NCBI RefSeq assembly: GCF_014610845.1
Contig: NZ_JABTCG010000009.1
Location: 1 to 55,463 of the forward strand
DNA length: 55,463 nucleotides
DNA from: Maribacter arenosus
GTDB taxonomy: Bacteria > Bacteroidota > Bacteroidia > Flavobacteriales > Flavobacteriaceae
Direction: 5' to 3'
This document shows positions 40,145 to 55,463 of the stretch, piece by piece (the first letter of the stretch is position 1; every line of letters begins with the position of its first letter). A program made the translations under genes and the position numbers. The notes under the pieces were generated by a model, which was not told the DNA's origin, did no database searches, and saw only the letters and a program-made list of their open reading frames with translations.

Positions 40145-40879
40145 TTATAAAAGCGCTGTATTTATGTCCAAAATATTATTTCTCACATAATTCTTTATAA
40201 ACCCTGTGGTAAAGTGTTCACTACCATAAAATTCTTCATTTCTGAGCAATTGAACGATATTCAATTTACGATATGCAGTTAGCATGGGAATTGAAATAGG
40301 GGCATAGCTATAATGCCAAGGCTCATATTTAAAACCTCTTCGTTTGGGGTCATCGGTATAAACTAAATGGAAGTCGAATTTACGGGAATTCCCATCCATC
40401 CATTTCTTAAAATCCTCAAAAGGTCCTCCCGGTTCGAATTTTTCAGGAACCAGGACATCGCCACTGGTCTTTCGATACCCGTCAATGATATCGATGTCTG
40501 TGCCCCAATGATGTCTGCTTGTGCCCGGGATGGTGGAATATTCTATGATCTTATCAATAGCAGCAAGGGGTTCTAAACCGTCATCCTCGGTGTATTTCAA
40601 GTACTTTCTTTCCCAGATCAATTCCTGTCGTTCGAAATTGCGATAACTCGAAACTATTTTAAGATCTATACCGTCACTATATGCAGCTCTTTTCATAGCC
40701 AAAAAAGCATCATGGGCTTCCTTTCTAAGTTGTATTCCTTCACCATAAAGCGCAATGTCTTCCTTGCCCATTAATTCCAATACCGAATATTCAATTTCAT
40801 TTGCAAAAGCAAATGATGGGGTAATCGACAATGCGATTCCTATTGTGCTGCTCTTTTTTATGAATGTTCTTCTTTTCAT
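40145..40879 (-). CDS. M15-family D-Ala-D-Ala carboxypeptidase, Tat-type signal
   Basis: A 244-aa VanY-like peptidase. Zinc and catalytic segments are SSYRNFERQELIWERKY, TSRHHWGTDIDIID with His and Asp ligands, and FKYEPWHYSYAP with the catalytic Glu and third ligand His. The N terminus MKRRTFIKKSSTIGIALSIT has twin arginines in an R-R-x-F-I-K context, which suggests Tat export rather than Sec. It trims peptidoglycan stem peptides. Forty bp upstream of the M48 gene, same strand; the two may be co-transcribed. Confidence 0.9.
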   Translation of the reverse strand: MKRRTFIKKSSTIGIALSITPSFAFANEIEYSVLELMGKEDIALYGEGIQLRKEAHDAFLAMKRAAYSDGIDLKIVSSYRNFERQELIWERKYLKYTEDDGLEPLAAIDKIIEYSTIPGTSRHHWGTDIDIIDGYRKTSGDVLVPEKFEPGGPFEDFKKWMDGNSRKFDFHLVYTDDPKRRGFKYEPWHYSYAPISIPMLTAYRKLNIVQLLRNEEFYGSEHFTTGFIKNYVRNNILDINTALL

Positions 40880-41115: not shown

Positions 41116-42279
41116 TTATTGGGTCAAGGATAGATAGAGGTATCCTTGATGGCGCTGTTGTAGATCATGCATGGTAATGATATAGAAATAAATACCAGTG
41201 GCCAATCCGGAACCGCGTGCAACCACCATATTTCTATTCGAGGTGCCATCGAACTCATTTTTGTAGTTATCTTTTGAATAGACCAATACCCCATACCTGT
41301 TGAATATTTGTATGGAATTGTTGGGTGATTTTTCAATGCCATCGAGGACCAGAAAATCGTTTTTGCCATCCCCATTAGGGGTCATAAAATAATTGTCTAG
41401 TTCTAAAGTTTCAAATTGTTCAACCTTATCAGCATTTCCGCCGAGCGTAATTATTTCATAATCATTAGGAATAAAGGGTTCGGATGTTACTGACCCACGC
41501 ATAAGTCCACCTTCAACATTAGTATTGCCAAGGTTTACCCATGATTGCTGATCCTTATGCCACCCAACCACCTTAAGGTCACCAATAAATTCGGCCAATG
41601 CCCCAATATTACTTAATTCATCCCATGTAAGGGTAACCGAGGTCAATACCCCTCCTTCTAAATGCCAATATTCTTTTTCGCTTACCGACATATATTCAGA
41701 AGCTATTTTCTTGGTTTCAAAACTTTTTCCGAAAACAGAAGGTGCATTGGGATTTTCGTAAAAATATGCACACTTGACCAGTGGGTCAATTATTTCAGAA
41801 CGTATCCCTAAAGGTCTAAGCCTTTCATCATCGCCTACAGGGAATGTAAAATTGTACTTGTTGGTAAAGGCGGCATATCCGTCAATAAGTGAGACATCAT
41901 TTTCACCAACATAGAAGGCATTTTCCATGAAATTGGTAAATACATCCGTATTGATTCTTGGTGTTATCACATCACCTATAACGAGGTTTACGTTGTTGGT
42001 CACATCTATTGGGGTGTACAGATACAAACCGTTGTCCACGGAGATTTCCGCATCGTAGAATACTGGAATATTTGTTCCGGAAACCATAATCGATTTATCA
42101 AACCCATAAAACCCTACTAACCCTGAATTTTGGTCAAAAGCGCCATCATTGATCAAATCTATATGAAAACCCATCATTGTGGAACCATGTATTTGCATAT
42201 CACCAAAGTTGTGGACAGCATCTTGTGCGAAAACGCTGGAGTATAAACAAAAGGATACTATTAAATATTTCATTTGCAT
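41116..42279 (-). CDS. T9SS type B sorted partner protein 1 (CHU_C domain)
   Basis: A 387-aa secreted protein. The signal peptide ends at about SVFAQ. A ~270-residue N-terminal domain follows (motifs NFGDMQIHG, GFHIDLINDGAFDQN, GLVGFYG, LIDGYAAF, FPVGDDERLRPLGI, CAYFYENP, VVGWHKDQQSWVNLG, NDYEIITLG). The last ~90 residues are a T9SS type B/CHU_C domain: NYFMTPNGDGKNDFLVLDG, SIQIFNRYGVLVYSKDNY, GIYFYIITM, GYLYLSLTQ. Two paralogues in the window share all these motifs. It starts 4 nt after the stop of the giant fibre gene, so it is translationally coupled. A second ATG two codons downstream is possible. The N-terminal domain's function is unknown. Confidence 0.9.
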   Translation of the reverse strand: MQMKYLIVSFCLYSSVFAQDAVHNFGDMQIHGSTMMGFHIDLINDGAFDQNSGLVGFYGFDKSIMVSGTNIPVFYDAEISVDNGLYLYTPIDVTNNVNLVIGDVITPRINTDVFTNFMENAFYVGENDVSLIDGYAAFTNKYNFTFPVGDDERLRPLGIRSEIIDPLVKCAYFYENPNAPSVFGKSFETKKIASEYMSVSEKEYWHLEGGVLTSVTLTWDELSNIGALAEFIGDLKVVGWHKDQQSWVNLGNTNVEGGLMRGSVTSEPFIPNDYEIITLGGNADKVEQFETLELDNYFMTPNGDGKNDFLVLDGIEKSPNNSIQIFNRYGVLVYSKDNYKNEFDGTSNRNMVVARGSGLATGIYFYIITMHDLQQRHQGYLYLSLTQ

Positions 42280-42283
42280 ACCC

Positions 42284-45200
42284 CTATCTTAATTTGTTGA
42301 TTACAAAACTGGATTCCCCAGAACCATTGAAACGCACTGTACCGGAATTAGCTTCCCTGTAGGTAACTATGGTTACGACATCATTGGCATTCAAGCTTAA
42401 GATTTCACTTATATGAATGCTTGATTGGTTATGGCCACTTGCGTTTCTAATATAACCTGATGCGGCCAAAGCTCCAATGGCTGTGCCATTAACAGCAATT
42501 CGGGCGTTTGTATTAGCCCTTGCTGAAGCACTATATAAGGACAAATTGGCCCTAATATCATATCTGCCAGATTCTTTTACAATTAAGGTATTTCCGCTTA
42601 CTTGGTAAAGATTGGTTCCGTCATCTTTGTAGTCTTCGGTTCCAAATAGAGGGGCAACCGTATTGTTGACATTTAAATTGGTTGTGGTATTCGTATTCGT
42701 CCATCGGCCACCATAATTGATTTTAGATCGTTGCAGAACACCTGTGGCATCTACCGCGAGTATATCATCGGTATTTGCAGCCGTGCTCAATGTTCTTATT
42801 CTGGCGTTGCCATTTACATCGAGCTGTTCAGAAGGAGTATTAGTATTGACACCTACTTGGCCACCATTTTCCAAGAATAACCGATAATCCGCTACTCCGG
42901 ATTCCACAAAGTTAAGCCCACCCGATAACAAGTTCCAATGCCATTTTGGAGATCCTGTATTATCTTGAAAAGCCAATACATCCACACCATTTGCTCTAAT
43001 TACTAATGGGTGGTTATTGAAGGCGGTAGCGCCATTTACCAGAACGGATGAAGTTGTAATTTGTAATTCTTGGCTTCCACCTACTGAAAATGCCAATTCG
43101 TCTGCCGCACTTCTGTACATCCCAGTATTACTATCTGCAGAAAATCGATAAGAGGGAAGACCCGCAGTACCATCGGAGTTGTTTAATCCGGATGTACGAG
43201 TGGTGCCGTTTACCGTCATTTTATTGGTTAATCCGGAATTCGTTCCAACACCTAATCTGTTATTGGCGCTATCCCAAAATAATTGCCCATTACTTTCCGT
43301 TGGCTTTCCATCGGAACCGGCAAAAAATACGGAACCCGAAGTACCTGTGTGCTGCAAGCCCGCAAGGTCTACCGTGGTATCCGTACCGGACTCGGTGATA
43401 ACTAAATTTGTACCGGTCAGTACTGCTGCAGTCAATGATTCATTGCCAATATTGGCATCGGCATCATCTACATCATCATTATTGTCGGCAAAGCCAGCTG
43501 GGATGTTGGCCAGGCTGGTCCATTCCCCGTCGAAATCGTCCGTGGAATCCGTGTCCAGATTAACCGGTAAATTGGTCAAATCCGTGAAGTCACCGCTAAA
43601 GTCATCAGTGGAATCGGTATCCAGATTCACAGGTACGTTGGTCAAGTCGTTGAAGTCACCACTGAAATCATCGGTGGAATCGGTATCCAAATTCGGGAAC
43701 TCGTTGTTTACGGCCGTCGCCACCTGGGCATCGGTCAGTTGTGTATCGTCGTCCCCATCGTCCAGTCCGGCAGGCCTATTGGCCAAGCTGGTCCATTCCC
43801 CATCGAAATCATCGGTGGAATCGGTATCCAGGTTCGCTGGAACATTGGTCAAGTCGTTGAAGTCGCCACTGAAATCATCGGTAGAGTCCGTATCCAGATT
43901 AACCGGTACGTTGGTCAAATCGGTGAAGTCACCGCTAAAGTCATCGGTCACATCCGTATCCAGATTCGGGAACTCGTTGCTGATTGCCGTTGCCACCTGG
44001 GCATCGGTCAGTTGTGTATCGTCGTCCCCATCGTCCAATCCGGCAGGCCTATTGGCCAAGCTGGTCCATTCCCCATCGAAATCATCGGTGGAATCGGTAT
44101 CCAGGTTCGCTGGAACATCACTCAAATCGTTGAAACTTCCTGTGAAATCATCGGTGGAATCGGTATCCAAATTCGGGAATTCGTTGTTTACCGCCGTTGC
44201 CACCTGGGCATCGGTCAGTTGTGTATCGTCGTCACCATCGTCCAATCCGGCAGGCCTATTGGCCAAGCTGGTCCAATCGCCATCGAAATCATCGGTGGAA
44301 TCCGTATCCAAATTCGCCGGTACGTCGGAAAGGTCATTGAAACTCCCCGAGAAATCATCGGTGGAATCGGTATCCAAATTCGGGAATTCGTTGCTTACGG
44401 CCGTTGCCACCTGGGCATCGGTCAGTTGTGTATCGTCGTCACCATCGTCCAAACCGGCAGGCCTATTGGCCAAGCTGGTCCATTCCCCATCGAAATCATC
44501 GGTTGAATCGGTGTCCAAGTTCACAGGCACATCACTCAAATCGTTGAAACTTCCTGAGAAATCGTCTGTTGAATCGGTATCCAAATTCGCTGGTACGTTC
44601 GTCAAATCGGTAAAGTCACCACTGAAGTCATCGGTCACATCGGTATCCAAGTTCGGGAACTCGTTGCTTACGGCCGTTGCCACCTGGGCATCAGTCAGTT
44701 GTGTATCGTCGTCCCCATCGTCCAATCCTGCAGGCCTATTGGCCAAGCTGGTCCATTCCCCGTCGAAATCATCGGTGGAATCGGTGTCCAGATTCACAGG
44801 TACATTGGTCAAATCGGTGAAGTCACCGCTAAAGTCATCGGTCACATCGGTATCCAAATTCGGGAACTCGTTGTTTACGGCCGTTGCCACTTGGGCGTCG
44901 GTCAGTTGTGTATCGTCGTCCCCATCGTCCAAGCCGGAGGGCCTATTGGCCACGCTGGTCCATTCCCCATCGAAATCATCGGTGGAATCGGTGTCCAGAT
45001 TAACCGGTACGTTGGTCAAATCGGCGAAGTCGCCACTAAAGTCATCTGTCACATCGGTATCCAAATTCGGGAACTCGTTGTTTACGGCCGTTGCCACCTG
45101 GGCATCGGTCAGTTGTGTATCGTCGTCCCCATCGTCCAAGCCGGCGGGCCTATTGGCCAAGCTGGTCCATTCGCCATCGAAATCATCGGTGGAATCCGTA

Positions 45201-48200
45201 TCCAAATTCGCAGGCACGTTTGTCAAGTCATTGAAGTCGCCGCTGAAGTCATCGGTGGAATCCGTGTCCAGGTTTACTGGAACATCACTCAAATCGTTGA
45301 AACTTCCGGAGAAATCATCGGTGGAATCGGTATCCAGATTCGCTGGTACGTTGGTCAAGTCGGTAAAGTCACCACTGAAGTCATCCGTGGAATCCGTATC
45401 CAGGTTAGCCGGTATATTGGTCAAATCGGTGAAGTCGCCACTGAAGTCATCCGTGGAATCCGTATCCAGGTTCGCTGGTACGTTCGTCAAATCGGTAAAG
45501 TCACCACTGAAATCATCGGTCACATCCGTATCCAGATTCGGGAACTCATTGCTTACGGCCGTTGCCACCTGGGCATCGGTCAGTTGTGTATCGTCATCGC
45601 CATCGTCCAATCCGGCAGGCCTATTGGCCAAGCTGGTCCAATCCCCATCGAAATCATCGGTTGAATCCGTATCCAAATTGGCAGGCACGTTTGTCAAGTC
45701 GTTGAAATCGCCACTGAAGTCATCCGTGGAATCCGTATCCAAATTCGCCGGTACGTTGGTCAAGTCGGTAAAGTCACCACTGAAATCATCGGTCACATCG
45801 GTATCCAGATTCGGGAATTCGTTGTTTACGGCCGTTGCCACTTGGGCATCGGTGAGTTGTGTATCGTCGTCCCCGTCGTCCAATCCGGCAGGCCTATTGG
45901 CCAGGCTGGTCCAATCGCCGTCAAAATCATCGGTTGAGTCCGTATCCAGATTCGCTGGTACGTCGGCTAGGTCATTGAAACTTCCTGAAAAATCGTCCGT
46001 GGAATCCGTATCCAGATTCACAGGTACATTGGTCAAATCGTTGAAGTCGCCACTGAAATCATCCGTGGAATCGGTATCCAGGTTCGCTGGAACATCAGAT
46101 AGGTCATTGAAACTTCCTGAGAAATCATCGGTCAGATCGGTATCGAGGTTCGGGAACTCATTGCTTACGGCCGTTGCCACCTGGGCATCGGTCAGTTGGG
46201 TATCGTCGTCACCATCTGCAATATCCGCAGGAATGCTGGTAAGGCTGGTCCAATCGCCATCGAAATCATCGGAGGAGTCCGTATCTAGGTTCGCTGGAAC
46301 ATCACTCAAATCATTAAAACTTCCTGAGAAGTCATCGGTGGAATCCGTATCCAAATTCGCAGGTACGTTTGTCAAGTCGGTAAAGTCACCGCTAAAGTCA
46401 TCTGTCACATCGGTATCCAAATTCGGGAACTCGTTGTTTACGGCCGTTGCCACTTGGGCGTCGGTCAGTTGTGTATCGTCGTCCCCATCGTCCAATCCTG
46501 CAGGCCTATTGGCCAAGCTGGTCCAATCCCCGTCAAAATCATCGGTGGAATCGGTATCCAAATTCGGGAACTCGTTGTTTACGGCCGTTGCCACCTGGGC
46601 ATCGGTCAGTTGTGTATCGTCGTCCCCATCGTCCAATCCTGCAGGCCTATTGGCCAAGCTGGTCCATTCCCCATCGAAATCATCGGTGGAATCCGTATCC
46701 AGATTAACCGGTACGTTGGTCAAATCGGTGAAGTCGCCACTAAAGTCATCGGTCACATCGGTGTCCAAATTCGGGAACTCGTTGTTTACGGCCGTTGCCA
46801 CCTGGACATCGGTCAGTTGTGTATCGTCGTCACCGTCGTCCAAGCCGGCAGGCCTATTGGCCAAGCTGGTCCAATCCCCATCGAAATCATCGGTAGAATC
46901 CGTATCCAAATTCGCTGGTACATTGGTCAAGTCGTTGAAGTCGCCACTGAAGTCATCGCTTGAATCCGTATCCAGGTTCGCTGGAACATCAGATAGGTCA
47001 TTGAAACTTCCTGAGAAATCATCGGTCAGATCGGTATCGAGGTTCGGGAACTCATTGCTTACGGCCGTTGCCACCTGAGCATCGGTCAGTTGTGTATCGT
47101 CGTCACCGTCGTCCAATCCGGCAGGCCTATTGGCCAAGCTGGTCCAATCGCCATCGAAATCATCCGTGGAATCGGTATCCAAGTTCACTGGTATATCACT
47201 CAAATCGTTGAAACTTCCTGAAAAATCGTCCGTGGAATCCGTATCCAGATTCACAGGTACATTGGTCAAATCGGTGAAGTCGCCACTGAAGTCATCCGTG
47301 GAATCCGTATCCAGGTTCGCTGGTACGTTCGTCAAATCGGTAAAGTCACCACTGAAATCATCGGTCACATCCGTATCCAGATTCGGGAACTCATTGCTTA
47401 CGGCCGTTGCCACCTGGGCATCGGTCAGTTGTGTATCGTCATCGCCATCGTCCAATCCGGCAGGCCTATTGGCCAAGCTGGTCCAATCCCCATCGAAATC
47501 ATCGGTAGAGTCCGTATCCAGGTTCGCTGGAACATCACTCAAATCATTAAAACTTCCTGAGAAGTCATCGCTGGAATCCGTATCCAGGTTCGCTGGTACG
47601 TCGGACAGGTCATTGAAACTTCCTGAGAAATCGTCTGTTGAATCCGTATCCAAATTGACAGGCACGTTGGTCAAATCGGTAAAGTCACCGCTAAAATCAT
47701 CGGTAGCGTCCGTATCGAATGCTGAAAGATCGATAGTTGTGGCATCTGGATCATTGGTCAAAGAAATAATTCCACCGGCATATTGTAAATCCTGTATTTC
47801 ATTTCCCGCATCCGCATCCGCATCGTCTACATTCAAGGTAATCGTATTGCCCCCATCGATTCCGATACTTCCCGAAGTGCCATTTGTCGTTAAATTCTGA
47901 TTGGCACCACCAGCACTAAAAGTGGTTTGTGCACCATTTTCATTGGTATAGGTGTAGGTTCCATCAAGATTATTGATCAAGGTCGTGGTGGTTTCCGCAG
48001 CTCCATAGAAAGTGATCGGACTTACAGTTCCATTGGTAAACGTGTAGGTTCCGTTACCATTATCAACCACTGATGCGCTTCCAGAAGCGGAATTATTACA
48101 AAGATTATTCCATTGCGACCCATTAAAATAATGGATGCATTGGGTATCGGTGTTGTAAACCATCGCCCCATGTAAAGGGGTTATGTTTTGCATTTGGGAG

Positions 48201-48358
48201 GTTGATAAACGGGTCAGCACCAATGCTTTGGTGGTACTTTCCAACTCTATGATCGATCTCGCATTTATCGTACTAGGGTTCTCACCAATTTTTACTTGGG
48301 CAGTTACCATTGTTGCAGAAAAAATGAGCAACGCAAAGATTGTTTTACTTAAATTCAT
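42284..48358 (-). CDS. Giant Asp-rich repeat fibre protein with C1q/TNF-like C terminus
   Basis: A 2024-aa secreted protein. Residues 1-20 are a signal peptide. Residues 21-110 form a base module shared with the collagen-like protein at 49838-53158 (VKIGENPSTI, IELEST, M-x-x-I-x-P-L-x-G-A, YNTDTQC, WNNLC, VDNGNGTYTF; Cys74 and Cys87). Residues ~215-1622 are a shaft of about 47 22-aa units (type LDTDSTDDFSGDFTDLTNVP) with 15 inserts of 25 aa (LDDGDDDTQLTDAQVATAV, then NNEFPN or SNEFPN). Residues ~1623-1885 resemble tail-fibre-type segments (RLGVGTNSGLTNKMTVNG, DSNTGMYRSAADELAFSVGG). The last ~140 residues look like a C1q/TNF jelly roll (GRYDIRANLSLYS, IHISEILSLNANDVVTIVTY). No CHU_C or type A sorting domain is seen. 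Confidence 0.88.
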   Translation of the reverse strand: MNLSKTIFALLIFSATMVTAQVKIGENPSTINARSIIELESTTKALVLTRLSTSQMQNITPLHGAMVYNTDTQCIHYFNGSQWNNLCNNSASGSASVVDNGNGTYTFTNGTVSPITFYGAAETTTTLINNLDGTYTYTNENGAQTTFSAGGANQNLTTNGTSGSIGIDGGNTITLNVDDADADAGNEIQDLQYAGGIISLTNDPDATTIDLSAFDTDATDDFSGDFTDLTNVPVNLDTDSTDDFSGSFNDLSDVPANLDTDSSDDFSGSFNDLSDVPANLDTDSTDDFDGDWTSLANRPAGLDDGDDDTQLTDAQVATAVSNEFPNLDTDVTDDFSGDFTDLTNVPANLDTDSTDDFSGDFTDLTNVPVNLDTDSTDDFSGSFNDLSDIPVNLDTDSTDDFDGDWTSLANRPAGLDDGDDDTQLTDAQVATAVSNEFPNLDTDLTDDFSGSFNDLSDVPANLDTDSSDDFSGDFNDLTNVPANLDTDSTDDFDGDWTSLANRPAGLDDGDDDTQLTDVQVATAVNNEFPNLDTDVTDDFSGDFTDLTNVPVNLDTDSTDDFDGEWTSLANRPAGLDDGDDDTQLTDAQVATAVNNEFPNLDTDSTDDFDGDWTSLANRPAGLDDGDDDTQLTDAQVATAVNNEFPNLDTDVTDDFSGDFTDLTNVPANLDTDSTDDFSGSFNDLSDVPANLDTDSSDDFDGDWTSLTSIPADIADGDDDTQLTDAQVATAVSNEFPNLDTDLTDDFSGSFNDLSDVPANLDTDSTDDFSGDFNDLTNVPVNLDTDSTDDFSGSFNDLADVPANLDTDSTDDFDGDWTSLANRPAGLDDGDDDTQLTDAQVATAVNNEFPNLDTDVTDDFSGDFTDLTNVPANLDTDSTDDFSGDFNDLTNVPANLDTDSTDDFDGDWTSLANRPAGLDDGDDDTQLTDAQVATAVSNEFPNLDTDVTDDFSGDFTDLTNVPANLDTDSTDDFSGDFTDLTNIPANLDTDSTDDFSGDFTDLTNVPANLDTDSTDDFSGSFNDLSDVPVNLDTDSTDDFSGDFNDLTNVPANLDTDSTDDFDGEWTSLANRPAGLDDGDDDTQLTDAQVATAVNNEFPNLDTDVTDDFSGDFADLTNVPVNLDTDSTDDFDGEWTSVANRPSGLDDGDDDTQLTDAQVATAVNNEFPNLDTDVTDDFSGDFTDLTNVPVNLDTDSTDDFDGEWTSLANRPAGLDDGDDDTQLTDAQVATAVSNEFPNLDTDVTDDFSGDFTDLTNVPANLDTDSTDDFSGSFNDLSDVPVNLDTDSTDDFDGEWTSLANRPAGLDDGDDDTQLTDAQVATAVSNEFPNLDTDSTDDFSGSFNDLSDVPANLDTDSTDDFDGDWTSLANRPAGLDDGDDDTQLTDAQVATAVNNEFPNLDTDSTDDFTGSFNDLSDVPANLDTDSTDDFDGEWTSLANRPAGLDDGDDDTQLTDAQVATAISNEFPNLDTDVTDDFSGDFTDLTNVPVNLDTDSTDDFSGDFNDLTNVPANLDTDSTDDFDGEWTSLANRPAGLDDGDDDTQLTDAQVATAVNNEFPNLDTDSTDDFSGDFNDLTNVPVNLDTDSTDDFSGDFTDLTNLPVNLDTDSTDDFDGEWTSLANIPAGFADNNDDVDDADANIGNESLTAAVLTGTNLVITESGTDTTVDLAGLQHTGTSGSVFFAGSDGKPTESNGQLFWDSANNRLGVGTNSGLTNKMTVNGTTRTSGLNNSDGTAGLPSYRFSADSNTGMYRSAADELAFSVGGSQELQITTSSVLVNGATAFNNHPLVIRANGVDVLAFQDNTGSPKWHWNLLSGGLNFVESGVADYRLFLENGGQVGVNTNTPSEQLDVNGNARIRTLSTAANTDDILAVDATGVLQRSKINYGGRWTNTNTTTNLNVNNTVAPLFGTEDYKDDGTNLYQVSGNTLIVKESGRYDIRANLSLYSASARANTNARIAVNGTAIGALAASGYIRNASGHNQSSIHISEILSLNANDVVTIVTYREANSGTVRFNGSGESSFVINKLR
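43493..47716 (-). repeat. In-frame 66-bp/75-bp coding repeats of the giant fibre
   Basis: About 47 copies of a 66-bp unit (22 aa) with a 75-bp insert (25 aa) after 15 of them, giving a 141-bp higher-order repeat. All lengths are multiples of three, so copy-number change keeps the frame. Copies differ by scattered synonymous and a few amino-acid changes (S/V/L/A after LDTD; SGD/SGS/DGD/DGE), so the array is not freshly expanded. Confidence 0.95.
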
Positions 48359-48694
48359 AGGTTAAGTCTTGGGTGTACTAAGCTACTTTCCCGTAAAAAT
48401 AACCGATGCCTAGCTTTTACCTAAGAAATTGTTGTGTATGGACAACACAATGTGGTGAAACTCATAAAGCGACACGATTCACCTATAAAACGTGCAGTTT
48501 AACTAATGGTCACGGCGGAACAACTGTGGGTAAAATCTTGAATATACTACTCCTAAACTCTCTTTTTAAGAAAGAAAATTCTGATTCCTTGGAAGACTTA
48601 ATTATAGGTAATCGCAATAATAATCATAATACAACCTACGAAAATTTAGCAATATGGATAGGTTCATATGTAAACCATGGTGACTTCCAGAATG
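48359..48694. other. Spacer between fibre pair 1 and fibre pair 2
   Basis: This 336-bp gap should hold the promoter of the giant fibre gene and the end of the second CHU_C transcript. I see a small inverted repeat TTGTGT/ACACAA around 48431-48455 and no TAnnTTTG match on the minus strand. A plus-strand open frame from 48406 runs into the CHU_C gene and looks spurious. Confidence 0.5.
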
Positions 48695-49834
48695 TTATTT
48701 CGCGAGGTAGATATATCCTTGATATTTTAAATTATGCGCTTTTATTTCAAGAATATAGAAATAAACCCCTTCTGGTAAATGTTGTCCTTTTTGGATGATT
48801 TTTTTGTTCCCGATCCCATTGAATTCATTTTGATAATCTGTTTTTTCATAGACAAGCTGACCCTCCCTATTAAAGATCATAAGATTATTAGTAGGGTATT
48901 CTTCAACTATTTTTAATATAAAAAAATCGTTTGCACCATCCCCGTTTGGGGTAAGGGCATAATTGCCTGAATCTCTATTTTTTAAATTAAACAAGAAACC
49001 GAAAGTAAAGATTTCATAGTCATTGGCATTGAATGTATTTGATGTTACCCAGCCCTGGTCGATTTCCCCTTCAGATTTAAAACTCCCCAAATTGGTCCAT
49101 TGTTCATTTTTTTTGTCCCACCCCGCTACCGCTATGTGTTCAATCGCTTCTACAGTAGATCCTAAGTTGCAATCCGGACTCCAGTTTAGGGTTATTTGAA
49201 TCATGCCAGAAGTCGTCACATTCCAAAATTCCTGGGTATGAATGGAGCTCAATTCAGCATCCTTTCGATTAATGTCAAAACCAGTGGTGAAACTCTCTGG
49301 AAAATCAGGATTTTCACGAAAGTATTCACATTTGGCCAAGAAAGGGCCATCAATAAACTCAAGTAACAATGGTCTTATTAGATTCCCATTGCCAACTGGG
49401 AAACTGAATATTTTCTGTCCTTCGACAGCGGCATGACCATCGATTTTGGCCATATCCACAGCACCTTCATAAAATGCATTTTCTGATATTTTAGTGTAGA
49501 TATTTTTATTATTTCTAGCCGATGTGATATTCCCATAAATAAAATTTAGGGAATTGTCAATAATTAATGGAACTTCCAAATACAAATCGCCTTCTACAGC
49601 CGTTTCAAAGTCATAAAAAGTTGGACTGAAAGACCCCGATATAGATAGACTTTCCTCGCTATGATAAAATCCTATCAATCCTAAATTATTATCAAAGCTA
49701 CCATCATTGATAAAGCCTGTATGAAAGCCTACCAAACCTTTATTATGAAGTTGTAGGTTGCCATAGTTATGCACCGCCTGACCTATTAGGCTTTGACCCA
49801 ACAAAAAAAGTAGTATAAACAATCCTTTTTGCAT
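48695..49834 (-). CDS. T9SS type B sorted partner protein 2 (CHU_C domain)
   Basis: A 379-aa paralogue of the proteins at 41116 and 53376. Signal peptide to about SLIGQ. The N-terminal domain has NYGNLQLHNKGLVGFHTGFI, INDGSFDNN, GLIGFYH, KIDGHAAV, FSFPVGNGNLIRPLLL, CEYFRENP, VAGWDKKNEQWTNLG and NDYEIFTFG, the same order as its paralogues. The C-terminal type B domain has NYALTPNGDGANDFFILKI, LMIFNREGQLVYEKTDYQNE, GVYFYILEI and GYIYLAK. It starts 3 nt after the collagen-like gene stop. It should be exported by T9SS and attached or released at the surface; its ligand is unknown. Confidence 0.9.
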   Translation of the reverse strand: MQKGLFILLFLLGQSLIGQAVHNYGNLQLHNKGLVGFHTGFINDGSFDNNLGLIGFYHSEESLSISGSFSPTFYDFETAVEGDLYLEVPLIIDNSLNFIYGNITSARNNKNIYTKISENAFYEGAVDMAKIDGHAAVEGQKIFSFPVGNGNLIRPLLLEFIDGPFLAKCEYFRENPDFPESFTTGFDINRKDAELSSIHTQEFWNVTTSGMIQITLNWSPDCNLGSTVEAIEHIAVAGWDKKNEQWTNLGSFKSEGEIDQGWVTSNTFNANDYEIFTFGFLFNLKNRDSGNYALTPNGDGANDFFILKIVEEYPTNNLMIFNREGQLVYEKTDYQNEFNGIGNKKIIQKGQHLPEGVYFYILEIKAHNLKYQGYIYLAK

Positions 49835-49837
49835 CTT

Positions 49838-53158
<3,321 letters not shown>

Positions 53159-53375
53159 TTTTGGGGATTTAACTGGTTGGTTCCAACCGGAAAACTAGTC
53201 TAAAGAAGTTATTTGTAATATTTATTGTTGCAAAGACGTAAGAAAAGTATGTATAAGACGGTAATGTTGTTGTTACAAATATTCAATTATGGTATTAAAA
53301 AGGGGGTGTTCACCGATTTTATGGGTATTTCATCGAGGAATTAAAATAAAAAATAAGGAAGATAAAGACTACAAA

Positions 53376-54527
53376 TTAACGCGTTAAATACAAAAACCCT
53401 TGGAAATCCAAGTCCAAATCGTCCATAGTTACGATGTAGAAGTACACATCGGCGGGTAATCCTTGTTGTCGATCGATTACAAAATTATCTACATTGGCGA
53501 AGCCGTTAAACTGATCCGTATAATTCTGTTGCTCAAAAACAAGAGACCCAAATCGGTTGTAGATTTTTAGATGGTTGTTCGGGGAGAGTTCCAGCAATTC
53601 GGGAATTATAAGCACATCGTTGATGCCATCCCCATTGGCCGTAACCAGGTAATTTTCCAAGGTCAGGAAATCGGCGGGTACGTCCATAGTCCCAAACGTA
53701 AGGGCCTCATAATCATCGGGGACAAAACTTTCAGAAGCCACAAATCCAGTAGACAGGTCCCCAACGGCCACCGTACCCCCTAAGGGTGTCCATTGCCGGG
53801 AGGCTTTGCTCCAACCTACCACCATAATCGTTGCGACATCATCGGTAAGTGAGGCGATAGCACTGCGTTCGTTCCAACTGATGCTGATGGTTGAAGGGAC
53901 ACTCCCCTCTAGCCGCCAAAATTCCGTGGCACTCACAGCCCCCAAGTCCCTCGCTCTTATGGCCGGACTAAAAGTGACCTCTAAGGAAGACGGACTACCC
54001 GGATTCTCATAAAAATAGGCACATTTGGCCAAGGGGTTAACACCCGAAGAGTTCAATATCAAGGGCCGTAATTGTTGGGTATCGCCTATGGGAAAGGTCA
54101 CATTTTGTTGTTGGGTCACGGCGGCATACCCATCGACCTTGGAGAGATCGCTTTCCCCCGTATAAAACGCATTTTGTAAAAAATTGAAGTAGGACCCCGA
54201 TTGGTCCTTTGGGGTCAAGAAATCGCCAAGGATAAAATTGGTATTGTTGCCGCTATTGACGCCGGTCTGTAAAAACACCCCCAGGTCGTTAACGATCTCT
54301 ACATCGAAAAAGGTAGGGGCAAAGGCCCCTGATACATTCAGTAAGGCAGTGCCATAAAACCCGGCCAGGCCCACATTTTCATCAAAGGCGGCATCGTTGA
54401 TCAGATCGGTATGAAAGCCCAATTGCCCTTGGTTATGGATCCGGATGTTCCCACTGTTATACAGGGCGGTTTGGGCATGTGTTACCAAACCTATTAATAA
54501 CGATATAAGGATGAAAATATATTTCAT
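53376..54527 (-). CDS. T9SS type B sorted partner protein 3 (CHU_C domain)
   Basis: A 383-aa protein from ATG 54527 (MKYIFILISLLIGLVTHAQ signal peptide). The open frame to 54584 would overlap the upstream gene and add a poor N terminus. Same architecture as the other two partners: NSGNIRIHNQGQLGFHTDLI, INDAAFDEN, GLAGFYG, KVDGYAAV, FPIGDTQQLRPLIL, CAYFYENP, VVGWSKASRQWTPLGG, DDYEALTFG. The C-terminal domain has NYLVTANGDGINDVLIIPEL, HLKIYNRFGSLVFEQQNY, DVYFYIVTM and GFLYLTR. Four nt after the stop of the third fibre gene. Confidence 0.9.
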   Translation of the reverse strand: MKYIFILISLLIGLVTHAQTALYNSGNIRIHNQGQLGFHTDLINDAAFDENVGLAGFYGTALLNVSGAFAPTFFDVEIVNDLGVFLQTGVNSGNNTNFILGDFLTPKDQSGSYFNFLQNAFYTGESDLSKVDGYAAVTQQQNVTFPIGDTQQLRPLILNSSGVNPLAKCAYFYENPGSPSSLEVTFSPAIRARDLGAVSATEFWRLEGSVPSTISISWNERSAIASLTDDVATIMVVGWSKASRQWTPLGGTVAVGDLSTGFVASESFVPDDYEALTFGTMDVPADFLTLENYLVTANGDGINDVLIIPELLELSPNNHLKIYNRFGSLVFEQQNYTDQFNGFANVDNFVIDRQQGLPADVYFYIVTMDDLDLDFQGFLYLTR

Positions 54528-54531
54528 TTGC

Positions 54532-55463
54532 TTATTGTAAGAGTGTAAAATGCCAAATAGCATTTGCAGGTACACCAGTACCATCTACTATTTGAACTGT
54601 AAACGTATTTGAACCTTGTGAAACAACATAAATTCTATTGTCTCCTTGAACGGTGAGCTGAATTATGTAATTTGAGCCTGAAACAAAACCACCATTTAAT
54701 GAAACTACATATTGTCCTAAAGATGGATTTGAAATTGGGGATAATAACAACCCTGTGGTTCCAGCAGCTAAATTACCACCTCCACTGTTTACTTTTCCAA
54801 TGCCTTTAACAGGACCGGTATTAGTAGGAACAGGTTGCCATGCGACTGCGCCACCCACTGTAGTCAAGACATATCCATTAATGGTATGAGGGCTAATTTT
54901 TGCTGGGGTCACATTTTCATTTAATATTTTTATGGATGTAACAGCGTCCGTAGCTAATTGAGCTGAGTTAATTCCTCCATCGGCCACTTTGAATTCATTT
55001 CCTGACGTACCATCCCCCGTAATAGTTGCCTGGTCAGCGAGTTCGGTCGTTCCGCCACCAAGGGGAAGGTCTACCCATGTAACTAATGTCCCCGTACCAT
55101 TAGTTCGTAATATTTGATTCGCACCTCCAGGTTGTATTTTAGCTGGTGTAACTGATTCAGCTATTAATTCTGATTCACCGACTGAATCTGCCTGTAATTC
55201 CGATTGATCCACTGAATTAGGAGCTAAATCAGCAGCAGTAATGGTATTATCTGCAATACTTCCTCCAATACCACCTATAATCGAACCATCCGCAAGTTGC
55301 AGGGTATTTACCCCGCCATTGGCTACCTGAAGCTCGTTGCCCGTTGTCCCGTCTCCTGTGATTGTAAGGCCGTCACTGCCTACCGCACCTGCCGTTGCGG
55401 CGGACCAGACCACATTTCCCGCCCCATCGGTTGTGAGTACCTCTCCGCTGTTGCCTTCGGCTA
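54532..55463 (-). CDS. Third fibre protein, 3' part only (runs off the window)
   Basis: The frame is open from 55463 to its stop at 54532, so the N terminus lies outside. The visible ~310 residues start AEGNSGEVLTTDGAGNVVWS. They contain a third repeat type: LTITGDGTTGNELQVANGGV, then ATITGDGTSGNEFKVADGGI, with NTLQLADGSI/NSAQLATDAV, and shorter S-V-x-x-S-E-L, V-T-P-A-K-I steps. The last ~90 residues form a beta-rich head (GKVNSGGGNLAAGTTGLLLS, SLGQYVVSLNGGFVSGSNY, GTGVPANAIWHFTLLQ) unlike the heads of the other two fibres. The GTG at 55413 is not the real start. Paired with the CHU_C gene at 53376. Confidence 0.88.
   Translation of the reverse strand, partial: AEGNSGEVLTTDGAGNVVWSAATAGAVGSDGLTITGDGTTGNELQVANGGVNTLQLADGSIIGGIGGSIADNTITAADLAPNSVDQSELQADSVGESELIAESVTPAKIQPGGANQILRTNGTGTLVTWVDLPLGGGTTELADQATITGDGTSGNEFKVADGGINSAQLATDAVTSIKILNENVTPAKISPHTINGYVLTTVGGAVAWQPVPTNTGPVKGIGKVNSGGGNLAAGTTGLLLSPISNPSLGQYVVSLNGGFVSGSNYIIQLTVQGDNRIYVVSQGSNTFTVQIVDGTGVPANAIWHFTLLQ

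Follow-up and report, generated by a model that had tools for sequence, protein, structure and literature searches.

The window analysed here is the 55,463-nt stretch of Maribacter arenosus DNA that makes up the whole of contig NZ_JABTCG010000009.1. It carries three consecutive gene pairs on the minus strand, each consisting of a fibre gene followed by the gene of a smaller partner protein (Table 1). The stop-to-start gaps are 4, 3 and 4 nt in pairs 1, 2 and 3, in keeping with the common order, strand and 3–4-nt coupling reported in a preliminary description of this DNA. The third fibre gene is open at the contig end; the N-terminal part of its protein (733 aa) is encoded on the minus strand of contig C22 (1-2201), with a gap between the two parts.

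Table 1. Positions of the fibre and partner genes and of their modules in the window
Feature	Position	Strand	Description
Partner 1	41116..42279	-	387 aa; signal peptide, all-beta N-terminal domain, type B T9SS CTD
Partner 1 CHU_C	41131..41400	-	type B CTD
Fibre 1	42284..48358	-	2024 aa; T9SS domain not found
Fibre 1 neck + head	42287..43276	-	final ~130 aa resemble phage tail fibre C-termini
Fibre 1 shaft	43562..47656	-	Asp-rich; 30 x 22-aa units, 15 x 47-aa units
Fibre 1 N-terminus	48029..48358	-	signal peptide + base module
Partner 2	48695..49834	-	379 aa; CHU_C 48704-48958
Fibre 2	49838..53158	-	1106 aa; collagen-like
Fibre 2 shaft	50204..52768	-	collagen G-x-y; 41 + 241 triplets, one break
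Fibre 2 N-terminus	52817..53158	-	signal peptide + base module
Partner 3	53376..54527	-	383 aa; CHU_C 53385-53660
Fibre 3	54532..55463	-	C-terminal 309 aa only, cut by contig end

The first-ATG position of the partner 3 ORF (54584) lies inside the fibre gene and was rejected in favour of the ATG at 54527. The plus-strand mirror ORFs (e.g., 43179-47078) are the antisense of the repeats and were not taken as genes. A regulatory scan of the window returned promoter-like sites at chance frequency and terminator-like sites below it.

Partner and fibre proteins

The three partners are 41–46% identical along their length, which confirms that they are paralogous throughout. Their assignment as proteins of about 380 aa with a type B T9SS domain also holds: PF13585 (CHU_C) is found in all three at 78–101 bits (cut-off 27), and TIGR04131 is passed by two, with the third at 34.4 bits against a cut-off of 35. 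The three CTDs are 43–48% identical to each other. The AlphaFold2 model of a partner reached a pLDDT of 85.5. At E <= 1e-3 it matched nothing in the PDB (closest 8.6e-3), and BFVD gave no match either (best E 1.4e-3); the fold therefore gives no function. Three base modules and three partners are present in the M. arenosus genome, and no base module lies beside any of its eight other CHU_C proteins.

Fibres 1 and 2 have homologous base modules (46%). The shaft of fibre 1 contains 26% Asp, its 47-aa unit being a 22-mer joined to a 25-mer, and fibre 2 matches PF01391 (Collagen; E 1.4e-136) with 282 G-x-y triplets in two blocks. In fibre 3, two copies of the GDGT-GNE type motif lie in the window part and one in the C22 part, and so it amounts to a loose repeat. 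The view that the three shafts are of different types stands. Weak Pfam and NCBIfam matches inside the repeats (HAMP_2, Pullulanase_N2, Lcl and others) appear to be repeat artefacts, and Collagen alone was used. One fibre structure model was poor (pLDDT 42.9) and yielded no fold. In relatives, base modules have weak Mtd_N matches (E 0.0046 and 0.1) that fall under the cut-off and are a hint only.

The export signals of the fibres were searched for in several ways. The three window fibres, nine other close fibres and six distant fibres gave no match to a T9SS domain of type A or B, and a search with the type B profile only found no such CTD in 201 proteins upstream of partners. A lipobox-like motif was present in just one of the 130 fibres scanned, and a profile search of the window fibres detected no Omp85 or barrel family.

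Pairing, co-inheritance and module exchange across the family

In 92 other genomes of the family, 139 strong partner homologues were found, a count that excludes the three own partners and the weaker matches (E above about 1e-50). A same-strand ORF lies directly upstream of 137 of them; the gap is -8 to 60 nt in 119 of the 137 loci (median 7), and 97 of the 108 complete upstream ORFs contain the base module. The constant pairing noted in the window is therefore upheld across the family, and the refuting case named in that description, with partners mostly lacking an adjacent fibre gene, did not apply. Over 397 genomes, strong base modules and strong partners occur together in 90, alone in three each, and neither in 301 (Fisher p 1.8e-81; the genome and match lists behind this count were typed over from search tables).

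A total of 222 partner rows reduced to 206 distinct proteins, with 16 merged as duplicates. The frameshifted L190 was left out of an alignment. The named set of loci (L160-L239) partly repeats the other genome set, so that the two are not independent. A type B CTD profile built from these partners matches 204 of the 206, the two missed being L152 (332 aa) and L190.

The proposal that each partner serves its own fibre is too strict, as at least two base-module fibres precede a single partner in 24 of 194 units. It also fails as a general rule in Aquimarina, where the upstream ORF is without a base module in all 12 loci of the named set. Base-module fibres lie further upstream in seven of these 12, and another secreted protein adjoins the partner. 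Among the matches listed, 147 strong base modules were sorted by a simple rule: a partner follows just downstream of 72 and none follows 53, and the remaining 22 are on the minus strand and reach the contig start. No further gene common to every unit was seen.

When genomes were compared, the best matches of partner and of base module coincided in 686 of 1029 cases (0.667). The mean after shuffling within genomes is 0.463, and none of 200 shuffles scored as high, which supports the predicted co-inheritance of partners and fibres. Heads score alike (322/485, 0.664, vs 0.455 when shuffled), and the test is thus not specific to the base. The replacement of shafts and heads is likewise borne out, since both change around a conserved partner. 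A usable upstream C-terminus was available for 197 of the 206 distinct partners; the resulting head class counts are rough, as single linkage has merged two or more head types into class 0, and class 16 consists of a frameshifted ORF.

A further 26 distant loci of the same family and 14 loci outside it were examined apart from the close set. A motif scan placed a PorP/SprF-like gene no more than 384 nt downstream in 24 of the 26 distant homologues, one of which was confirmed by TIGR03519 (E 1.5e-77). The upstream ORF is at least 180 aa in 24 of the 26, with a base-module match in 13. These distant units recur in a single large genus of the family, perhaps Flavobacterium. The same scan, with a motif that caught just three of the eight own-genome matches above cut-off, found no linked PorP/SprF-like gene at 134 close partners, and no PorP/SprF gene was found on the contig of the window. 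A tree of PorP-like proteins singled out none of the own-genome shuttles as the one used by the partners; an orphan PorP/SprF-like protein at C23:6774-7703 is one candidate. Orphan substrates without PorP/SprF are reported in PMC12618676, and a missing shuttle gene is accordingly compatible with type B membership.

Among the 14 loci outside the family, nine lack an upstream base-module protein, and five of these nine (L309-L313) are proteins of 992–2049 aa that merely contain a partner-like domain. In L300 and L301, a base-module protein is paired with a partner bearing a type A-like tag. The L300 partner scores 25.4 bits with TIGR04183 (cut-off 23) and 25.3 with the Pfam type A model, under its cut-off of 27; the L301 match, at 20.3 bits, is under cut-off.

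A possible display route and its alternatives

It is proposed, with a probability of about 60%, that gene 1 encodes a tail-fibre-like adhesin without a T9SS signal that is displayed through a separate T9SS-tagged adaptor encoded by gene 2. The fibre, which is probably trimeric, has a Sec signal peptide and a conserved base module, whereas its shaft and its C-terminal head are exchangeable. The all-beta N-terminal domain of the adaptor may hold the fibre, the base being the likeliest point of contact. The SprA translocon and a PorP/SprF-family shuttle would then carry the type B domain to the cell surface, and the adaptor would remain there as an anchor. The fibre could leave bound to the adaptor or be caught by it at the surface, joint export being favoured, and would presumably serve in adhesion there.

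This arrangement is suggested because the CTD is borne by nearly all partners and found on no fibre scanned, and because close adjacency, genome co-occurrence and partner-base agreement above the shuffles point the same way. The own genome, with its equal numbers of base modules and partners and its other CHU_C proteins unlinked to any base, adds to this. The PorP/SprF-linked distant units and the type A-like pairs of L300 and L301 also favour an adaptor for export or anchoring over a mere cap. Several findings count against the adaptor: heads are co-inherited as strongly as base modules; half of the 26 distant loci and nine of the 14 outside the family show no upstream base module; and the Aquimarina loci, the multi-fibre units and the 53 base modules for which the simple rule gave no partner just downstream depart from simple pairing. 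The close partners without a linked PorP/SprF-like gene and the poor fibre model also belong here.

The presence of the CTD on the partner alone would also suit a fibre that crosses the outer membrane by another route, with a partner that is exported by the T9SS on its own and only anchors or caps outside. A single partner after two or more fibres fits a surface anchor no less than a carrier. Such a route is judged unlikely, as the fibres show no recognisable outer-membrane export signal, the single lipobox-like motif aside, and a second export system would have to accompany a unit that has no further constant gene. Somewhat less probable still is mere co-expression of two independent surface proteins, with the partner as a small adhesin in its own right that has no contact with the fibre. 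The partner-like domains in large proteins without an upstream fibre and the other secreted protein beside the Aquimarina partner agree with this, but near-total co-occurrence and adjacency, co-inheritance within genomes and the two loci where the CTD type changes but the pairing persists speak against it.

It is very improbable that the units are what is left of a prophage or phage-tail-like device and that the fibres are true parts of a virion or tailocin. The fibre 1 head shares 39% identity with a tail fibre of Synechococcus phage S-CAM7 (7e-13), the fibre 1 head and the fibre 3 shaft resemble phage tail fibres in PHROG matches, and S74 chaperone and tail collar domains occur in some related fibres. 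However, the partner has no PHROGs match and, at the sensitivity of the scan, was absent from 2.9 million viral contigs. No phage structural family was detected in the ten other window proteins scanned, all of which belong to chromosomal families, and the units have signal peptides and a T9SS-tagged partner. Phage origin was thus rejected as the main reading.

The adaptor proposal can be extended, tentatively and at somewhat less than even odds, to a "two-partner" mode of the T9SS. The adaptor would supply the secretion signal in trans, and very long, probably trimeric fibres without a T9SS signal would be exported and anchored via its CTD. The CTD type (A or B) and the shuttle would be interchangeable over the phylum, with shafts and heads swapped as in the evolution of phage host range. 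A conserved operon in which the largest protein is without the T9SS signal and its small neighbour carries it would widen T9SS display and may account for some of the orphan type B substrates. Marine flavobacteria would gain a modular adhesin set with fast-changing heads, which bears on surface choice.

Comparison with known systems

T9SS substrates are described, for example in PMC12618676, as carrying their own C-terminal signal. SprB-SprF of Flavobacterium johnsoniae and PG1035-PorP of Porphyromonas gingivalis share the CTD type with the partner and, as reported in PMC12618676 and PMC9143113, the downstream PorP/SprF-like gene with its distant homologues. In SprB, adhesin and CTD form one protein, whereas the CTD here is on a separate protein of about 380 aa and none was found on the fibre. 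The units are therefore not SprB-type gliding adhesins, which are single chains with a type B CTD and SprF downstream. Three orphan type B substrates sharing the shuttle Fjoh_1677 are reported in PMC12618676 to have CTDs that are >44% identical, comparable to the window CTDs. Like the close partners, they are without an adjacent shuttle in that account.

Among solved structures, the closest relative of the partner is the Aureispira grappling hook protein GhpA (PDB 9flp), for the type B CTD only (E 5.1e-13; next 0.0058). Unlike the fibres here, GhpA has the CTD in its own 5898-aa chain. The collagen-like adhesins Scl and Lcl have a long G-x-y shaft like that of fibre 2; they differ in that fibre 2 has a separate T9SS-tagged partner gene and a shaft interchangeable with non-collagen ones.

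Two-partner secretion (type Vb) is organised as a two-gene unit with a large exoprotein, and the present units share this layout. It was rejected as an explanation, as the partner is not an Omp85 protein by profile and no barrel is seen in its model. A literature search found no description of such a fibre and T9SS-adaptor system, and this way of putting fibres on the bacterial surface is apparently undescribed. Phage tail fibres share homologous head and shaft modules and the exchange of heads with the fibres here and, in some units, S74 chaperone and tail collar domains and a collagen shaft. The units differ from them in the partner not found in viral contigs, in its T9SS tag, in the signal peptide and in their chromosomal setting.

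The fibre-partner pairs of the window

The window carries three consecutive two-gene units on the same strand. The stop-to-start gaps within them are 4, 3 and 4 nt, which agrees with the tight 3-4 nt coupling of the preliminary description, and successive pairs are spaced by 217 and 336 nt. The partners (387, 379 and 383 aa) are 41-46% identical throughout and each ends in CHU_C (3/3), so the proposed paralogy over their whole length and the shared C-terminal domain both hold. At the thresholds used, the genome contains three base modules and three partners. The window is contig C24 of this genome, which measures 4.17 Mb. Ranked by the window partner, the top three named relatives all belong to Maribacter (82, 81 and 77%).

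The shafts were described as different in type, and this is correct. The Asp-rich shaft of fibre 1 (2024 aa) is built of 30 units with 22 residues and 15 with 47, while fibre 2 (1106 aa) has 282 collagen G-x-y triplets. The 45 shaft units of fibre 1 comprise 43 distinct DNA sequences but only 25 distinct protein sequences, which suggests selection at the protein level. Fibre 3 is interrupted by the contig end at 55463 and is thus split over two contigs; the part on the neighbouring piece, contig C22, has a shaft of the same kind as the window part. The heads of the three fibres belong to three different classes.

Positions of the units and of a flanking gene
Feature	Position	Strand	Remarks
Three fibre + partner pairs	window 41116-55463	minus	
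Fibre 3, N-terminal part (L240)	C22:1-2201	minus	signal peptide, base module; 733 aa in all
VanY-type carboxypeptidase gene	window 40145-40879		flanks the units

A gene resembling the VanY-type carboxypeptidase also lies within a cluster of another genome (G215, locus L088). Eleven upstream-gene entries form a family of ~235 aa, which we take to be similar to peptidase E. These neighbours perhaps mark a conserved chromosomal site of the units.

Pairing and unit layout across the family

The partner N-domain, used as query without its C-terminal domain (CTD), matched in 116 of the 397 family genomes (E <= 1e-8). Every listed match with E below about 1e-50 was taken as the strong set (139 loci in 92 genomes, the three own partners excluded). 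A same-strand ORF of at least 60 aa ends within 600 nt upstream of the partner in 137/139 of these loci; the spacing falls between -8 and 60 nt in 119/137 (median 7). The base module is present in 97 of the 108 complete upstream ORFs. The pairing postulated from the window is therefore a general rule in the family. Among the 11 exceptions, two have their start masked by stretches of N (L047, L153), one has a short ORF between the partner and a 1381-aa base-module ORF (L076), one has no fibre adjoining the partner (L064) and seven show no base-module match at the ORF start (L109, L122, L130, L131, L147, L148, L151). The two partners without an upstream ORF are L143, which lies 265 nt from the end of its contig, and L152, in which the CTD is also missing. 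In 36/139 loci the assembly breaks off no more than 3 kb upstream of the partner, which would be expected if long repeats disrupt assembly.

The reverse search, with a base-module profile against the same 397 genomes (strong: best E <= 1e-30), found strong base modules in 93 genomes and strong partners in 93. Both occur in 90, the base module only in 3, the partner only in 3 and neither in 301 (Fisher p 1.8e-81). By a simple adjacency rule, of the 147 base modules listed, 72 are directly followed by a partner, 22 are minus-strand modules at a contig start and 53 are neither; some of these 53 belong to the opening fibre of a unit with several fibres (genomes G032, G357, G236). In the named set of 80 loci, an upstream ORF is found in 77, and in 61 it is no more than 60 nt away. 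The base module is present in 43/63 complete upstream ORFs there, and 12 of the 20 exceptions are from Aquimarina.

It had been suggested that each partner serves its own fibre. This is too strict, since 24/194 units with upstream sequence have at least two base-module fibres before a single partner (steps of at most 400 nt). Furthermore, the upstream ORF lacks the base module in 12/12 Aquimarina loci of the named set, with base-module ORFs further upstream in 7/12. The partner is thus the closing gene of a fibre operon, as opposed to the match of a single fibre. A fibre lies directly after the partner of another unit, as in the window, in 22/194 units.

Several further layouts were noted. In Aquimarina (L192, L198, L201, L202, L213, L234 and similar), a different protein, mostly of 768-1442 aa, precedes the partner, and its C-terminus is often VITNRRITYRV or alike. 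The upstream protein of two distant units (L297, L298) has a related-looking end, ITNPxIYQRVK. Seven loci (L107, L128, L150, L154, L158, L218, L224) have, between their fibres, a protein of 226-242 aa that carries a VWVYRNGAKL motif and whose start resembles a signal peptide. In G357, G236 and G135 (L046, L117, L109), a short protein and the partner come after base-module ORFs some 2200-3300 aa long.

Searches over the phylum (matches in 41/395 genomes) and the order (matches in 26/296) brought up weaker relatives of the partner. Of 26 distant loci within the family, 24 have an upstream ORF of at least 180 aa and 13 a base-module match upstream at E <= 1e-2 (L274, L276, L280, L281, L283, L284, L286-L290, L292, L299). 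Outside the family, a base-module protein lies upstream in five of 14 loci (L300-L303 and L308; E 2.7e-20 to 9.9e-13) and is lacking there in nine. Five of those nine (L309-L313) hold the partner-like domain inside 992-2049-aa proteins of other families.

Co-inheritance, module exchange and phage likeness

The 197 upstream C-termini gave 18 similarity classes. Five of these are singletons; class 0 is a composite, and a frameshifted ORF makes up class 16. The head class of fibre 1 also occurs on collagen proteins (L043, L050, L085, L124), as well as on Asp-rich proteins (L049, L079) and short proteins (L044, L053, L057) that both lack collagen; over 129 aa, the fibre 1 head shares 74-75% identity with its counterparts in L043, L044 and L050. 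Three head classes, all distinct from that of fibre 1, accompany the partners that share 80-86% identity with window partner 1 (L160, L042, L162), and head classes differ in 50/140 partner pairs at 70-85% identity. One head on several shaft types and changes of head beside similar partners support the earlier proposal that shaft and head are replaced around a conserved partner. Modules are thus exchanged.

Partners and base modules are co-inherited. Their distances correlate over 130 pairs (Mantel r 0.36, p 0.002), and in the 22 genomes with at least two units, partner and base best matches agree in 686/1029 cases (0.667), against a mean of 0.463 and a maximum of 0.59 in 200 within-genome shuffles. 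Fibre-partner pairs thus travel together. Partner and head best matches agree to a like degree (322/485, 0.664; shuffled mean 0.455, maximum 0.581), and the comparison favours neither fibre end as the partner contact.

For the fibre 1 neck-and-head piece, the matches comprise a PHROG tail fibre (3.7e-16) and 29 phage records in all; its last third is 39% identical to the tail fibre of Synechococcus phage S-CAM7 (7e-13). The shaft in the window part of fibre 3 also matches PHROG tail fibres (best 4.3e-8). Among related units, L233 and L286 carry a Peptidase_S74 chaperone, and L300 has a phage tail collar domain. The fibre 1 base module has weak PHROG matches (best 3e-6, to a PHROG of unknown function), that of fibre 2 has no phage match at E 0.01, and the partner was not found in PHROGs or in the viral contigs searched. 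With E 0.0046 and 0.1, both sub-threshold, the base modules of L233 and L162 weakly resemble Mtd_N, which is the N-terminal part of a phage tropism protein.

The partner and its type B signal

The T9SS signal resides in the partner. A type B CTD profile built from these partners matches 204/206 distinct partners, the others being L152 (332 aa) and the frameshifted L190, and 0/201 upstream proteins. Neither a type A nor a type B CTD was found in the three window fibres, nine other close fibres and six distant fibres scanned for both. A lipobox-like motif occurs in 1/130 base-module fibres and 0/206 partners.

The partner model is of good overall confidence (pLDDT 85.5); its beta strands span residues 21 to 282, and the CTD is modelled with less confidence. 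The fold search gave no PDB or viral match reaching E 1e-3. Outside the family, the L300 tail-collar protein is paired with a partner whose type A domain scores 25.4 bits against the NCBIfam cut-off of 23, and below the Pfam cut-off; the type A score of the L301 partner is below both, and the L302 partner is type B (PF13585, 59.5 bits). If the CTD type changes in these few loci while the fibre pairing stays, the N-domain would face the fibre and the CTD would serve export. The comparisons establish the gene architecture, linkage, co-inheritance and exchange of modules; binding of the fibre by the partner, their co-export, anchoring and adhesion would be the functions of such a unit.

Judged from sequence, the unit is a real and widespread candidate fibre-adaptor operon linked to T9SS, apparently without prior description; none was found in titles and abstracts of mostly open-access literature. 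The best solved relative of the partner by sequence profile is the Aureispira grappling hook protein, in the CTD only.

A PorP/SprF-like gene, recognized by motif, lies at most 384 nt downstream in 24/26 distant loci within the family (exceptions L288, L296), one of them confirmed by TIGR03519 (E 1.5e-77). The motif follows 0/134 close partners with enough downstream sequence. The window genome has 11 CHU_C and 8 PorP-family matches over cut-off. By coordinates, a PorP-family gene adjoins 5/8 CHU_C proteins outside the units (contigs C20, C22, C3, C12, C19) and 0/3 unit partners. Work on F. johnsoniae describes three orphan type B substrates that use one common orphan shuttle, with CTDs >44% identical (PMC12618676); the window CTDs are 43-48% identical. 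Given this similar identity and the single shuttle of the F. johnsoniae orphans, the window partners are predicted to be served by a common orphan shuttle as well.
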